Shown here one piece after another: positions 16,781-25,154 of a stretch of 38,062 nt of DNA. The notes beneath the pieces are model-generated. The model was not told where the DNA came from. It saw only the letters and a list, made by a program, of their open reading frames with translations, and ran no database searches. The number at the start of each line of letters is the position of its first letter. Positions within the stretch are counted from its first letter, which is position 1. The stretch lies in the NCBI RefSeq assembly GCF_015354405.1, contig NZ_JADKYP010000060.1, positions 1 to 38,062 of the forward strand, given 5' to 3'. Origin of the DNA: Nocardia sp. BSTN01. Its GTDB lineage: Bacteria; Actinomycetota; Actinomycetes; Mycobacteriales; Mycobacteriaceae. Position numbers and translations under genes: made by a program.

Positions 16781-17347
16781 GTGAGCAGTTCCCAGCGACC
16801 CGACGCCGAGCTGGCCGATCTCGACCCTCAGCATCTCGAATCTCAGCACGACGGCGTCACCGCAGCGCAGTACCGGGCGGCCATGCGCCACTATCCCGCG
16901 GGAGTGACGATCGTCACTCTGAGCCGGCCGGAACGCCCCGTGGGGTTCACCGCCACCTCCTTCGCCTCGCTGTCGCTGGATCCGCCGTTGATCTCGTTCA
17001 ACATCGCGCACACCTCCTCGTCCATCGACGCGATGAGCGAGGCCGATTCGATCGTCGTGCACTTCCTCGGCGAACATCAACAGCATCTGGCGCAACGGTT
17101 TTCGCGCGCCGCCGAACAGCGTTTCGCCGACCCGGAGTTGTGGTCGACGCTGGACACGGGCGAGCCGGTGCTGCACGGCACCCCGATCTGGGTGCGGGCC
17201 ACCGTGCACCGGTTGATTCCCATCGGCGACCACACCCTGGTGGTCGGATTGGTCACCCGGGTGCACGACGACACCGGTGGCGAGCCGATGCGCAACCCGC
17301 TGCTGTACTACAACGGCACCTATCATCGCCCGGCCGGATTGGACTGA
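16781..17347 (+). CDS. Flavin reductase family protein (FMN-binding split barrel)
   Basis: A 188-residue flavin reductase-like protein. After a variable N terminus (about 30 residues) the family core begins: [40 protein letters not shown] and FNIAHTSSS bind FMN. The centre ([16 protein letters not shown]) and the end ([24 protein letters not shown]) match reductase components of two-component flavin monooxygenases such as HsaB. No monooxygenase partner is adjacent, so its partner must be elsewhere or it acts alone. The GTG at 16781 is the natural start; the true mRNA may be leaderless. Confidence 0.88.
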
Positions 17348-17453: not shown

Positions 17454-17558
17454 CAGGTCACGAGTACCAGCGTCAAGCCCCGGCTAGCTGGTCGGCAACC
17501 CTCCTCCGCGGTGGGGTGCTCCGGGTGACGACCTGGCCGATGCTCGACCGAGCACGGC
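17454..17558 (+). promoter_or_regulatory. SAM-IV riboswitch
   Basis: An S-adenosylmethionine-sensing riboswitch of the actinobacterial SAM-IV class. P1 is CAGGTC (17454-17459) pairing with GACCTG (17530-17535). The core carries the class signature strings GTCACGAG, CAGCGTCAAGCCCCGGCTAG, GGTCGGCAACCCTCC and CCGCGGTGGGGTGCTCCGGG. After P1, a second hairpin GCCG-A-TGCTC / GAGCA-CGGC (17536-17558) matches the extra downstream helix that distinguishes SAM-IV from SAM-I. It controls the class V PLP enzyme 60 bp downstream. SAM binding should lower expression, as in other SAM classes. Confidence 0.9.
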
Positions 17559-17564
17559 AAGCGC

Positions 17565-17596
17565 GGACTCCGATCACCCCTCCACATCCGGAGTCC
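17565..17596 (+). promoter_or_regulatory. Expression-platform hairpin of the riboswitch
   Basis: GGACTCCG (17565-17572) and CGGAGTCC (17589-17596) form a perfect 8-bp stem with a 16-nt loop. CGATC at the 3' stem/loop edge (17571-17575), followed by CC, can pair with GATCG and GG in the Shine-Dalgarno region (AAGGGATCG, 17604-17612). No T-run follows, so translational control is more likely than termination. Confidence 0.5.
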
Positions 17597-17617
17597 CTGA
17601 ACAAAGGGATCGCCCCG

Positions 17618-19078
17618 ATGCGTACTGCTGTCTCGACCATTGCCGCCGCCGAAACCGTTGTCCCGCAACAGGTTTGCTCTCACCGGGGCTGCGCCTCCCG
17701 CTCCGGCGCCGGCTGCGCCTGCTCGGCGTCGGACTGCGCCGGCAATGCCACCCGTTCCTGCCGCACCGGTGAACCGATCGCGCGCGTCTCCGGGTGCGAT
17801 CTGCGAGTTCCGTTGGTACAGGGCGGTTTCCGCACCTACGCCAACTTCGACTACGCCGCCAGCGCCCCCGCCCTGGCCCAGGTCACCGACCGCGTGAACG
17901 AGCTGCTCCCCTACTACGCCAGCGTGCATCGCGGCGCCGGATACGCCTCCCGCATCAGCACCGATCGCTACGAGGCAGCGCGTGGTGCGGTGGCCCGGGC
18001 GGTGAACTGCGCCGACGACCAGGTGGTGGTGTTCACCCGCAACACCACCGACTCGCTGAATCTGCTGGCCTGCTGCGTTCCCGGCGACACCGTGGTGCTC
18101 GATATCGAACACCACGCGAATTTCCTGCCCTGGACGCGGCGCGGCCGCCGGGTGGTCCCCGCCGCCGAGACGATCGCGCAGACGCTGCGGCGGATCGAGG
18201 CCGAGCTGTGCGCCGAACCCGCTGCGCTGCTTGCGGTGACGGGCGCGTCGAACGTGACCGGTGAGGTGCTACCGCTGGCGGACCTGACCGCGATCGCGCA
18301 TCGCCACGGCGCACGCATCCTGGTCGATGCCGCACAGCTGGCCCCGCATCGCCGAATCGACCTGCAGTCGTTCGCGGAATCCGGCGGGACGGGCATCGAC
18401 TACCTGGCCTTCTCCGGGCACAAGTTGTACGCGCCCTTCGGCGCCGGTGTGCTGGTGGGACGCCGGGACTGGCTGGACGCGGCGCCGCCGTATCTGGCCG
18501 GCGGCGGAGCGGTCACCGCCGTCACCACCGAGCAGGCCCACTGGGCGCCCGCACAGCAGCGGCACGAGGCGGGATCACCGAACGTCTTGGGCGCGGCGGC
18601 CGTCGCGGCGGCCTGTGAAACGTTGTACGCCCTCGACGAACAGGCCGTGGTCGAGCACGAACACCATCTGATCCGCCGCCTGCGCGACGGACTGAAAGCC
18701 GTTGCGGGCGTACGGCAACTGCGAATCTTCTCCGACAGCGCCGACAGTGTGGGCATCGTGGCGTTCACCGTCGACGGGTTCGAGCCCGGCCGGGTGGCGG
18801 CGTATCTGTCGGCCGAATTCGGTATCGGCGTGCGCGACGGGCGATTCTGCGCGCATCCCCTGCTGCGGCGACTCGGTGTCGACGGCGCGGTGCGCGCGAG
18901 CGTCGGTCTGGGCACGTCGGTCGCGGATGTGGAGCGCCTGCTCGAGGCGCTGAGCCGACTGATTCGAGACGGCGCGTCGTGGAACTACACGTATTCCGGT
19001 GGTCAGTGGTCCCCGCTGCCGGAGACCCGGCCCGGCTTGACCGAGGCGGGACAGGGCGCGGCACCCTGCACGATCTGA
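17618..19078 (+). CDS. Cysteine-desulfurase-like class V aminotransferase with Cys-rich N terminus, SAM-IV controlled
   Basis: A 486-residue fold-type I PLP enzyme. The core matches the SufS/CsdA branch: FDYAASAPALAQV at 78-90, YYASVHRGAGYAS, FTRNTTDSLNLLACC, EHHANFLPW with the catalytic His, cofactor Asp237 in LVDAAQLAPH, PLP Lys269 in SGHKLYAPFGAGVL, EAGSPN, and Cys411 in RFCAHPLLRRLG where desulfurases keep the persulfide Cys. The first 70 residues are unusual, with seven Cys (20, 25, 33, 35, 40, 48, 60) among Ser/Gly/Ala and no signal peptide. The start ATG has AAGGGA 8 nt upstream. The SAM-IV riboswitch ties it to sulfur amino-acid metabolism. Its exact reaction is unknown; a Cys-derived sulfur transfer is inferred. 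Confidence 0.88.
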   Translation: MRTAVSTIAAAETVVPQQVCSHRGCASRSGAGCACSASDCAGNATRSCRTGEPIARVSGCDLRVPLVQGGFRTYANFDYAASAPALAQVTDRVNELLPYYASVHRGAGYASRISTDRYEAARGAVARAVNCADDQVVVFTRNTTDSLNLLACCVPGDTVVLDIEHHANFLPWTRRGRRVVPAAETIAQTLRRIEAELCAEPAALLAVTGASNVTGEVLPLADLTAIAHRHGARILVDAAQLAPHRRIDLQSFAESGGTGIDYLAFSGHKLYAPFGAGVLVGRRDWLDAAPPYLAGGGAVTAVTTEQAHWAPAQQRHEAGSPNVLGAAAVAAACETLYALDEQAVVEHEHHLIRRLRDGLKAVAGVRQLRIFSDSADSVGIVAFTVDGFEPGRVAAYLSAEFGIGVRDGRFCAHPLLRRLGVDGAVRASVGLGTSVADVERLLEALSRLIRDGASWNYTYSGGQWSPLPETRPGLTEAGQGAAPCTI

Positions 19079-22738: not shown

Positions 22739-23101
22739 TCAGCCGACCGTTCGCGGTCGATCGGACAGGCCGAGACGCAGATGCTCGCTGTGATACACCG
22801 CCTCGTCCAGCAATTGCGCGACGTGCGTGTCGTAGAGGCTGTAGACGATGCTGCGCCCGGCGCGCGTTCCGGTGACGAGCCCGAGGTTGCGCAGCAGACG
22901 AAGCTGATGAGAGACCGCGGACTGTTCCATCCCCACAGCCTCGGCGAGTTCGGAGACCGGCCGCGGCCCCTGGCGCAATTCACTGAGGATCAGCAGCCGG
23001 CTCGGCGTGGCCAGGGCCTGCAGGGTGGTCGCCACATGCGCGGCGGACTCACTGTCCAGCCGGGCAATCGGCCGATCGCGGCCCTCGACGCCATGTCCCA
23101 T
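22739..23101 (-). CDS. nmtR: Nickel/cobalt-sensing ArsR-family repressor NmtR
   Basis: A 120-residue winged-helix repressor, very like M. tuberculosis NmtR (MGHGVEGRDR start, LQALATPSRLLILSELRQGP, VGMEQSAVSHQLRLLRNLGL, AGRSIVYSLYDTHVAQLLDE, YHSEHLRLGLSDR). Metal binding releases it from DNA. The alpha-5 ligands Asp91, His93, His104 and His107 are all present, and so is N-terminal Gly2-His3. The C-terminal His109 and His116 of the mycobacterial protein are Arg and Pro here. It is divergent from ctpJ with a dyad operator between, the same arrangement as nmtR/ctpJ in M. tuberculosis. The ATG at 23099-23101 gives the conserved MGHGVEG terminus. Confidence 0.93.
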   Translation of the reverse strand: MGHGVEGRDRPIARLDSESAAHVATTLQALATPSRLLILSELRQGPRPVSELAEAVGMEQSAVSHQLRLLRNLGLVTGTRAGRSIVYSLYDTHVAQLLDEAVYHSEHLRLGLSDRPRTVG

Positions 23102-23125
23102 AACCGTGGAGTTTAGCCGACCAGG

Positions 23126-23161
23126 TATATATGAAGACCTCTTCACGTGTTCTGTTATTCT
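23126..23161 (+). promoter_or_regulatory. NmtR operator and ctpJ -10 region
   Basis: The perfect dyad TGAAGA-CC-TCTTCA (23132-23145) is the centre of a 12-2-12-type ArsR operator whose left half continues with ATAT, the right half less well. TATTCT at 23156-23161 fits a -10 for ctpJ, which puts the dyad over the -35 region. It lies between the divergent nmtR and ctpJ starts. Confidence 0.6.
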
Positions 23162-23195
23162 CGGGTTGTCCGCTCCCGACCTTCGGAGGTTCCTC

Positions 23196-25154
23196 GTGTC
23201 CGCACCGGCCGCCACGCGTCCCGCCGCGCTCACGGCGATACCCGCACGGCGGACACGATTGTTCACGCTTCCCGAAATACGTTGGGCCGCAGCGGCTCTC
23301 CTATTCTTCGCGGCCGGCTCGGTGGCCCGGCTCCTGCACACGCCTCCCGAGGTGTGGTGGTCGCTCTATCTGGCCTGCTATCTCACCGGCGGCTGGGAAC
23401 CCGCCCTGGCCGGAGTGCGCGCCCTGCGTGAAAGGACGCTGGACGTCGATCTGCTGATGGTGGTGGCCGCGATCGGCGCCGCCGCGATCGGGCAGATCAC
23501 CGACGGCGCACTGCTGATCGTCATCTTCGCCACCTCGGGCGCACTGGAGGCGTTCGCGACCGCGCGCACCGAGGATTCGGTACGCGGCCTGCTCGATCTG
23601 GCGCCCGACACCGCCACCCGGATCGACGACGGCGGCGAAACAACCGTCAGGGCAGCGGATCTGGAGGTGGGCGATATGATCCTGGTCCGTCCCGGAGATC
23701 GCATCGCGGCCGACGGCGCGGTCGTGGCGGGCGCGAGCGAGGTCGACCAGGCGACCATCACCGGCGAGCCCATGCCGGTGGACAAAACACCCGGTGACGA
23801 GGTGTTCGCCGGAACCTCGAACGGCACCGGCGTACTGCGCGTGCGGGTCGGGCGCCGGGCCGAGGATTCGGTGGTGGCCCGGATCGCCGCCCTGGTCGAA
23901 CAGGCCGGCCGGACCAAGGCGCGGGCGCAGCTGTTCATCGAGAAAATCGAGCAGCGCTATTCGGTGGGCATGGTCGCGGTGACGCTCGCCGTCTTCGCCG
24001 TGCCGTTGATCTTCGGTGCGGCGCTGCGCGATTCGCTGCTTCGGGCCATGACGTTCATGATCGTCGCCTCACCGTGCGCGGTGGTGCTGTCCACCATGCC
24101 GCCGCTGCTCGCCGCGATCGCCAACGCCGGCAGGCACGGCGTGCTGGTGAAATCCGCGGTCGTGATGGAACGGCTGGGCAGCACCACTCGCGTGGCCTTC
24201 GACAAGACCGGCACGCTCACCCGCGGCGTCCCGGAACTCACCGATATCCGAGTGCTGCCCGATTGCCCGGGTACGGCCGAGGAGGTCCTGCGCTGGGCGG
24301 CGGGCGCGGAATACTCCAGCGAGCATCCGCTGGCCAGCGCGGTCGTGCGCGCCTGTCACGAACGCGGGCTCGCCGTGCCTGCGGTCGACCACTTCACCGC
24401 GCACCCCGGGCGCGGTGTCACCGCCACCGTGGAAGGTCCGGTCATCGAAGTGGGATCGCCTGCGGCACTGCTGAATTCGGGTGACACGGACGCCGCGGCG
24501 GTCGTTGCCGAGATACAAGGCGCGGGACATACCGCGGTGATCGTGCGGCGCGAGCGCAGGCCGATCGCGATTCTCGGCCTCACCGATCAGGCGCGTCCCG
24601 AAGCGGCCGACTCCGTCGCGGCGCTCGCCGAAATCACCGGTGCCGCACCGGTTCTGCTCACCGGAGACAATCTCGCCGCCGCCCGGCAGCTCGCCGGCCG
24701 GCTCGGACTCACCGATGTGCGGGCGGAGCTGCTGCCGGAAGGTAAGGTCGCCGCGATCGAAGCACTGGAAGCCGCGGGCGACCGGGTCACCGCCGTGGGC
24801 GACGGCATCAACGACGCCCCCGCGCTCGCCGCCGCGCATGCCGGAATCGCCATGGGCGGCAACGGATCCGACCTCACCCTGCACACCGCCGACGCGGTCG
24901 TCATCCGCGACGACCTGACCACCGTCCCCGCAGTCATCGCCCTCTCGCGCCGCGCGCGCCGCACCGTGATAGCCAATCTGATCATCGCCGCGACCTTCAT
25001 AGCCGTCCTGATCACCTGGGATCTCGTCGGCCATCTTCCGCTCCCGCTGGGCGTGGCCGGTCACGAGGGTTCCACGGTCGTCGTCGGACTCAACGGTCTG
25101 CGCCTGCTTCGACGCCGCGCGTGGGACAGCGGGACGGCGCGCGGGAGCGACTGA
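23196..25154 (+). CDS. ctpJ: P1B-4-type metal-exporting ATPase CtpJ
   Basis: A 652-residue transition-metal P-type ATPase for efflux of Co2+/Ni2+-type ions. It has the P1B-4 signature SPC at 292-294 (IVASPCAVVLST) and HEGST at 623-627 in the last TM helix, which together define cobalt-type P1B-4 pumps. Also visible are TGE at 189-191 (actuator), phosphorylated Asp336 in DKTGTLT, EHPLAS, LTGDN and GDGINDAPALAAAHAGIAMG. No N-terminal CXXC metal-binding domain exists, as expected for the subgroup. The GTG at 23196 has GGAGG 6 nt upstream. It is divergent from nmtR, which represses it. Confidence 0.93.
   Translation: MSAPAATRPAALTAIPARRTRLFTLPEIRWAAAALLFFAAGSVARLLHTPPEVWWSLYLACYLTGGWEPALAGVRALRERTLDVDLLMVVAAIGAAAIGQITDGALLIVIFATSGALEAFATARTEDSVRGLLDLAPDTATRIDDGGETTVRAADLEVGDMILVRPGDRIAADGAVVAGASEVDQATITGEPMPVDKTPGDEVFAGTSNGTGVLRVRVGRRAEDSVVARIAALVEQAGRTKARAQLFIEKIEQRYSVGMVAVTLAVFAVPLIFGAALRDSLLRAMTFMIVASPCAVVLSTMPPLLAAIANAGRHGVLVKSAVVMERLGSTTRVAFDKTGTLTRGVPELTDIRVLPDCPGTAEEVLRWAAGAEYSSEHPLASAVVRACHERGLAVPAVDHFTAHPGRGVTATVEGPVIEVGSPAALLNSGDTDAAAVVAEIQGAGHTAVIVRRERRPIAILGLTDQARPEAADSVAALAEITGAAPVLLTGDNLAAARQLAGRLGLTDVRAELLPEGKVAAIEALEAAGDRVTAVGDGINDAPALAAAHAGIAMGGNGSDLTLHTADAVVIRDDLTTVPAVIALSRRARRTVIANLIIAATFIAVLITWDLVGHLPLPLGVAGHEGSTVVVGLNGLRLLRRRAWDSGTARGSD

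Follow-up and report, generated by a model that had tools for sequence, protein, structure and literature searches.

A SAM-IV riboswitch linked to a cysteine desulfurase-like enzyme in Nocardia and related bacteria

The riboswitch, its leader and the enzyme gene

The window, by which we mean the whole stretch of 38,062 nucleotides of Nocardia sp. BSTN01 DNA that was analysed (contig NZ_JADKYP010000060.1), carries an S-adenosylmethionine (SAM) riboswitch of the SAM-IV class followed by the gene of a cysteine desulfurase-like enzyme. Riboswitches of this class bind SAM and lower expression, and they are usually discussed as switches for methionine genes. The riboswitch had been proposed in an original prediction made from the sequence alone, and a search with the Rfam model bore it out: RF00634 matched positions 17456..17569 of the plus strand over its full length (model positions 1-116 of 116) at 113.8 bits (E = 1.8e-20), the gathering score of the model being 38. 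It is the top scorer among the three SAM-IV riboswitches detected in this Nocardia genome. The aptamer ends 48 bases before the start codon of the enzyme gene, on the same strand, and it lies in the leader of a sulfur/methionine gene, as a member of RF00634 should.

The gene (17618..19078, plus strand) encodes 486 amino acids and a stop codon. Residues 76-441 match the Pfam family Aminotran_5 (E = 3.3e-81), and the protein is a class V pyridoxal phosphate (PLP) enzyme of the cysteine desulfurase-like kind. The start at ATG 17618 appears credible, because a possible Shine-Dalgarno sequence, AAGGGA, ends 8 bases ahead of it and because alternative start codons occupy the equivalent position in two related loci (TTG in L046 and GTG in L079). 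A true start further downstream, behind the cysteine-rich N-terminal part to which the original prediction had drawn attention, is thus not supported, and this part is probably translated.

Two hairpins can be drawn in the leader. In hairpin A (17565..17596, plus strand), GGACTCCG at 17565-17572 pairs with CGGAGTCC at 17589-17596, and the 5' arm shares bases with the aptamer's 3' end; in the RNA, GGACUCCG of the aptamer 3' end can pair with the downstream CGGAGUCC. A possible competing hairpin B (17593..17610, plus strand) would be formed by GTCCCT (17593-17598) and AGGGAT (17605-17610), and it covers the Shine-Dalgarno sequence. The leaders of 78 loci were used for the tests, 74 of them distinct, and L046, L079 and L107, for which no start was found there, were left out. 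Of the 74 distinct leaders, 63 have a helix of at least 6 base pairs for hairpin A, compared with 15% of shuffled linkers, and 60 have one for hairpin B (GUCCCU/AGGGAU), compared with 48% of the shuffles; the B helix overlaps the A helix in 46 of the 74. The helix count clearly supports hairpin A and weakly supports hairpin B. The overlap of the two helices suggests that the SAM-bound leader occludes the ribosome site: binding of SAM would block hairpin A, and hairpin B would then be free to hide the site. On this weak evidence, at least part of the control may be exerted at the level of translation, by two hairpins of the leader that exclude each other. The effect seen in a folding-energy calculation was small (mean change 0.04 versus 0.01; the change exceeded 0.3 for 7 of 78 leaders and for 15 of 390 shuffles). 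The available text of a study of Streptomyces clavuligerus describes the leader of the enzyme's gene as detected in the form of a premature transcript (PMC8269248), which argues for transcriptional control there.

Active site, family placement and termini of the enzyme

The enzyme was compared with 98 relatives. A total of 209 relatives were confirmed and the best 80 were used, so the 80 named relatives are the closest ones, headed by Nocardia kruczakiae, N. mikamii, N. cerradoensis, N. aobensis, N. elegans and N. nova, which probably places the window in the N. nova group; the other 18 are distant. One sequence, L151, is apparently frameshifted and was used unchanged. The PLP lysine K269 (18422..18424, plus strand) lies in the motif SGHK, is invariant in the 41 rows of alignment A2 and aligns with K226 of Escherichia coli SufS. 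The catalytic-type cysteine C411 (18848..18850, plus strand) aligns with SufS C364 and lies in RDGRFCA. The pattern R(D/S)GxFCA was present in 98 of 98 relatives (81 RDGRFCA, 5 RDGKFCA, 5 RDGAFCA, 5 RDGLFCA and 2 RSGCFCA), so that Cys411, on which the original prediction had built, was lost in none of them. Arg426 is invariant alongside it.

Fifteen positions of E. coli SufS were compared with 23 rows of the family. Twelve of them are identical in all 23 rows (K226, H123, D200, Q203, H55, R359, C364, R379, T95, N175, H225 and S223); besides the PLP lysine and the catalytic cysteine, these are residues that we take to be PLP- or substrate-binding. The remaining three differ: E96 is Asp in 21 of the 23, H362 is variable, and all 23 rows have Phe for H363. 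The window enzyme therefore has RDGRFCA where the active-site loop of SufS reads RxGHHCA. The histidine of SufS that presumably docks SufU is Gly in the window enzyme; we found no paper on that histidine. Judged by its residues, the protein resembles a type II cysteine desulfurase, with the PLP lysine, the catalytic cysteine and the substrate residues kept, and it would be expected to work like one, forming alanine and a persulfide from cysteine; an assignment to SufS or CsdA is nevertheless not warranted. The reasons are the differing residues and the curated cut-offs, which it does not reach while the SufS of the same genome does.

Its best curated NCBIfam match was sufS (TIGR01979), with 276.3 bits against a cut-off of 475.1; two far relatives, at 286.4 and 248.1, were also below it, and the genome's own SufS (L005), which served as a positive control, reached 572.3. 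The scores for CsdA (TIGR03392; 206.6, cut-off 493.6), for the family 2A encapsulin cargo desulfurase (NF041166; 256.4, cut-off 800) and for EgtE (TIGR04343; 47, cut-off 400) were too low as well, and the SufS, CsdA, EgtE and encapsulin-cargo identities were rejected. The identity to desulfurases of the SufS/CsdA type is 33-34%. In a tree of 27 rows, 23 members of the family, taken from a larger set, formed one clade (100/100) on a stem of length 1.6, apart from E. coli SufS and CsdA and from two further desulfurase-like enzymes that the Nocardia genome encodes. The composition of the two E. coli rows is deviant, and the position of L006, an outgroup row of great length, is unsure. Of the SufS/CsdA-like enzyme that the original prediction had described, the desulfurase-type active site with Lys269 and Cys411 thus stands.

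The window family shares with the SufS/CsdA type (E. coli SufS, NP_416195.1, and CsdA; Nocardia SufS, L005) the Aminotran_5 fold, the PLP lysine and the catalytic cysteine. It differs in having RDGxFCA instead of RxGHHCA, Asp mostly in place of E96 and a clade of its own, as well as in its SAM-IV control and, in part of its members, a tail with the residues PC. No SUF genes were seen alongside it: among the open reading frames of the window, read by eye, none was SUF-like, and the SufS of the genome is a separate gene between apparent SufC and SufU genes (neighbours also by eye). The genome has a third desulfurase-like enzyme as well (L006:1189-2577, plus strand, contig C110), with a Pro/Ala-rich N terminus and sufS as the best match (300 against 475.1); its gene overlaps an open reading frame of 438 amino acids for which there was no NCBIfam match at E <= 1e-20.

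Past the Aminotran_5 match, the window enzyme ends in a tail of residues 449-486 (18962..19075, plus strand), which closes with APCTI and is common to part of the rows of alignment A2. The tail cysteine, C484 (19067..19069, plus strand), stands three residues from the end. A cysteine was present within the last 12 residues in 79 of the 80 named relatives, as PC in 75; in the sole exception, L043, PC is somewhat further from the end, ahead of an extension. In alignment A2, the column of Cys484 holds Cys in 28 of the 29 rows that reach it, and 12 rows fall short. A C-terminal cysteine was seen in 5 of the 18 distant relatives and was missing in 13; of 14 further relatives, 7 have the PC tail, all of them from another class of the phylum. 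Four rows of group f18, presumably Streptomyces, have no PC tail but a tail cysteine in GRCVP. Going by these alignments, Cys484, which was missing from the original prediction, is better conserved than the N-terminal cysteines. The tail reads like a flexible arm, and it might carry sulfur. Catalysis as such would need no tail, provided that the relatives without a tail cysteine are active.

The N-terminal stretch that is rich in cysteine spans codons 20-60 (17675..17797, plus strand), and the seven cysteines that the original prediction had counted within the first 70 residues are there, at residues 20, 25, 33, 35, 40, 48 and 60. Pfam gave no match starting before residue 76 at E <= 0.1. The cysteine spacing was not found to be conserved among homologues: between the start and the VSG motif, at least four cysteines are present in only nine of the 80 closest named relatives (L037-L045), two in one, one in 67 and none in three. 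A codon alignment of nine N. nova-group sequences, the window included, showed that the frame is kept and that four Cys columns are invariant in 9 of 9, while the sequences differ from one another at two columns in which the window has Cys. The ratio of nonsynonymous to synonymous substitutions (dN/dS) in this group is 0.72 for the part before ARVSG and 0.12 for the rest of the protein. Because the stretch is cysteine-rich in so few relatives and only weakly constrained, we conclude that it is a lineage-specific, loosely held extension found in a few Nocardia species and not key to function.

Association of riboswitch and enzyme, and other SAM-IV targets

With a covariance model, a SAM-IV riboswitch was found just upstream of the enzyme gene at 80 of the 80 closest named loci and at 14 of the 18 distant loci. 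Among the 19 SAM-IV sequences that went into this model, several come from the loci searched with it; Rfam's own model found all six linked sites that were given to it (L064, L148, L149, L158, L159 and L161). Regular-expression searches miss many true SAM-IV sites, and the positions were taken from covariance models or Rfam searches. The genome searches described below, covering Nocardia, a set of 246 genomes of the phylum and the class of genome G294, are samples. The Nocardia sample overlaps with the named relatives (for example G002 and L039), so these counts are not independent.

Among the 246 genomes of the phylum, the pattern VRDGxFCA occurred 15 times, in 14 genomes, and 12 of the 15 matches sit 1.1-1.3 kb downstream of a SAM-IV riboswitch on the same strand. 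Two of the three unlinked matches are apparently due to chance (in G127 the letters give Ser for Arg, and on contig 102 of G003 no such gene is called). Under a stricter filter, RF00634 was present in 21 of the 246 genomes, and 12 of these 21 carry the motif behind a SAM-IV. All seven f18 and g31 genomes with the motif have it linked to the riboswitch, and in five of them, presumed Streptomyces, no other SAM-IV was detected. The class of G294 has eleven pattern matches, two of which already belonged to the phylum sample; of the nine that were newly examined, seven encode the enzyme, six of these behind a SAM-IV, and two look like chance. The association of riboswitch and enzyme is thus kept far beyond the genus.

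The pairing as such is already in print for two Streptomyces species. In the available portions of the papers, a SAM-IV riboswitch lies upstream of an annotated cysteine desulfurase in S. lividans (SLIV_26975; PMC8079986) and of a class V PLP enzyme in S. clavuligerus (CRV15_21540; PMC8269248), and Corynebacterium glutamicum has one before cg1478 (PMC3890552). Going by their published description, the two Streptomyces genes resemble the window in their arrangement. In our own set, the f18 genomes have an RDGLFCA member behind SAM-IV, and three members in which the start is called at MSVST have no Cys-rich N terminus. A tested function for the two Streptomyces enzymes was not found in the available text of PMC8079986 and PMC8269248. 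Within the texts available to them, our literature searches returned no function for the enzyme, no paper joining cysteine desulfurase, rhodanese, O-acetylhomoserine and persulfide, and none joining SAM-IV with rhodanese. The suggestion that this branch of sulfur supply is undescribed therefore has to give way as far as the pairing is concerned and holds, within those texts, for the function; the enzyme is a conserved, SAM-IV-linked and apparently uncharacterised variant of a known enzyme kind.

The other two SAM-IV riboswitches of the genome lie ahead of methionine genes. Unless Pfam or NCBIfam is given, genes of the neighbourhoods were named by eye, on the basis of the first residues of their proteins. 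The second riboswitch precedes the genes of a rhodanese-like protein (PF00581) and an O-succinylhomoserine sulfhydrylase, MetZ (641.9 against a cut-off of 618, on a partial sequence), and the third precedes MetX (608, cut-off 475). A SAM-IV stands ahead of rhodanese-MetZ in 11 of the 11 Nocardia genomes whose SAM-IV riboswitches were gone through by eye. In a distant genus from another class of the phylum, a rhodanese gene is found beside the enzyme itself: in G294 it begins about 60 bases after the SAM-IV-linked enzyme gene (L253:7760-8101, plus strand; Pfam, 39 bits), and in G357, of the same genus, a like short rhodanese protein follows directly (L269). In N. paucivorans (L064), genes resembling MetQ, MetN and MetI precede the enzyme gene (these are their best NCBIfam matches, all below the cut-offs), and in G517 (L270) it is preceded by apparent MetQ/MetN/MetI-like genes read by eye. 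The metX, metY, rhodanese-metZ and MetNIQ genes share the riboswitch class and the genomes with the enzyme; they belong to known steps of methionine synthesis or uptake, whereas no assigned step was found for the window enzyme.

Further SAM-IV targets were noticed in the course of this survey. In G086 and G059 (L148 and L149), the enzyme gene belongs to an island that in each genome holds four SAM-IV riboswitches, two ATP-binding cassette (ABC) transporters of the SBP_bac_3 type, a DUF1684 protein, an oxidase of the DAO family and a GNAT protein; the genes were tested in L148 and partly in L149. The island of G059 also includes a luciferase-like monooxygenase (273.7 against the NtaA/DmoA cut-off of 279.7). 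The genes of these islands look as if they served to salvage organic sulfur amino acids under the control of SAM. In the Nocardia genomes G050 and G011, a SAM-IV (L212:1501-1613 and L213:1501-1614, both on the plus strand) lies ahead of a gene pair that differs from the common methionine targets and encodes a protein of about 246 amino acids and a HAD-like protein, the latter read by eye. In Nocardia genomes G006, G001 and G050 (L209, L211 and L234), one lies before an apparent branched-chain-type ABC substrate-binding protein; in two of the three, the gene that follows is permease-like.

As for genes close to the enzyme, five of the 98 loci (L072, L075, L079, L091 and L096) have a similar same-strand gene, with the start WATDPGALLITEEGY or one close to it, 75-91 bases past the enzyme gene. 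In the window, the flavin reductase gene at 16781-17347 was considered as a partner and dropped, because it adjoins the enzyme gene, by eye, only in N. nova-group loci L037 and L045, is about 1 kb off in L046, and is found on the opposite strand at a distance of kilobases in L088, L104, L109, L112 and L115. Further along, at 22739-25154, an apparent gene of an ArsR-type repressor is divergent to that of a P-type metal ATPase (by eye, from the list of open reading frames).

Possible role of the enzyme

The reading that we favour, and hold to be rather likely, is a SAM-controlled supply of cysteine sulfur for homocysteine. When SAM is plentiful, SAM-IV would repress a type II cysteine desulfurase that is dedicated to this task; as SAM and methionine fall, the enzyme would be made, take sulfur from cysteine with the help of PLP on Lys269 and hold it as a persulfide on Cys411. 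The sulfur would then be delivered, as sulfide or as a carried persulfide, to homocysteine synthesis by MetZ or MetY, with MetX and rhodanese-MetZ acting alongside under the same kind of switch. We infer the direction of control from how SAM-IV riboswitches behave; cysteine as the substrate and the hand-over of sulfur are likewise deduced. MetZ and MetY need sulfur at the level of sulfide, and homocysteine is in demand when SAM is low. A desulfurase that shares its kind of switch with MetX and MetZ could provide this sulfur from cysteine. The SAM-repressed, cysteine-dependent sulfur mobiliser of the original prediction fits both the linkage and the active site, its activity being read from the sequence.

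Several observations weigh against this reading. Four distant relatives (L153, L156, L162 and L163) have no SAM-IV beside them, and Rfam's own model agreed on its absence at the three of these sites that it was given. Two further relatives, L255 of G194 (the third of the unlinked matches in the phylum sample) and L275 of G477, are also without an adjacent SAM-IV, and Nocardia G038 has an orthologue (71% identity) with no SAM-IV nearby. Conversely, in Nocardia G033 and G055 no orthologue was found among the best matches listed (38 and 37% identity), and the SAM-IV-controlled rhodanese-MetZ is kept, so a relay between the two is not obligatory and the rhodanese-MetZ module is independent of the enzyme. 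The enzyme gene mostly stands alone: at 88 of the 98 loci, the 100 bases downstream of it contain no called gene on the same strand. Finally, growth of Rhodococcus IGTS8 on dibenzothiophene raised MetY and left MetZ unchanged, as given in the available text of PMC8557817, and this does not speak for MetZ as the starvation route in that strain.

The rhodanese link argues for a persulfide carried by rhodanese over sulfide, and a more detailed form of the sulfur supply can be drawn from it, although we consider it unlikely as a whole. The persulfide would pass from Cys411 to Cys484 on the flexible tail, on to rhodanese and then to MetZ, and the sulfur of methionine would bypass free sulfide and cystathionine. 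Desulfurase, rhodanese-MetZ and MetX would be gated jointly by their SAM-IV switches. The early run of Cys codons in the N. nova group could be a second gate, the cysteine-consuming enzyme being made only when charged cysteine tRNA is available.

Other roles have to be set against the supply of sulfur for homocysteine. The enzyme could be a carbon–sulfur lyase for sulfur salvage that acts mainly on S-substituted cysteine, cystine, cysteine sulfinate or selenocysteine imported under sulfur limitation, within a SAM-IV-controlled scavenging regulon. The islands of G059 and G086, with their four SAM-IV riboswitches, transporters, oxidase, GNAT protein and, in G059, monooxygenase, resemble the ytm and yxe operons of Bacillus subtilis, which handle S-modified cysteines, and luciferase-like monooxygenases and amino acid transporters are among the other SAM-IV targets read by eye. 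Such a lyase is doubtful all the same, since Cys411 and Arg426 are invariant and plain carbon–sulfur lyases are not known to need either a catalytic-type cysteine or a residue of the Arg426 type, and no such island surrounds the enzyme in the other loci whose genes were listed.

A second housekeeping desulfurase for iron–sulfur clusters, thiamine or tRNA thiolation, in which SAM control would reflect a demand for SAM (for example by radical SAM enzymes or methyl transfer), seems to us quite improbable. It would agree with SufS being the best curated match and with the annotation of the S. lividans homologue as 'Cysteine desulfurase (Thiamine metabolism)' in the available text of PMC8079986. 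The genome has a separate SUF-like gene run (by eye), and no iron–sulfur or thiamine genes were noticed beside the enzyme in the loci read by eye, where no search aimed at them was made. The score of 276.3 falls far short of the SufS cut-off that the genome's own SufS passes, H363 is replaced by Phe throughout the 23 rows and the histidine presumed to dock SufU is Gly. Least probable is a functional persulfide relay or metal sensor in the Cys-rich N terminus that would set the enzyme apart, as the original prediction had proposed. The seven cysteines and the four columns kept in frame in all nine N. nova-group sequences are what it could build on; the rarity of the feature (9 of 80), its dN/dS against that of the core, the two variable Cys columns and the lack of a Pfam match before residue 76 make it very hard to uphold.

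The supply of cysteine sulfur for homocysteine would give a place to an enzyme whose motif stands behind a SAM-IV in 12 of the 21 SAM-IV-bearing genomes of the phylum sample, yet for which we found no assigned function. If the enzyme feeds homocysteine, actinobacteria would own a methionine-responsive tap on cysteine sulfur that is separate from the iron–sulfur supply, and which may be a persulfide-based alternative to transsulfuration.

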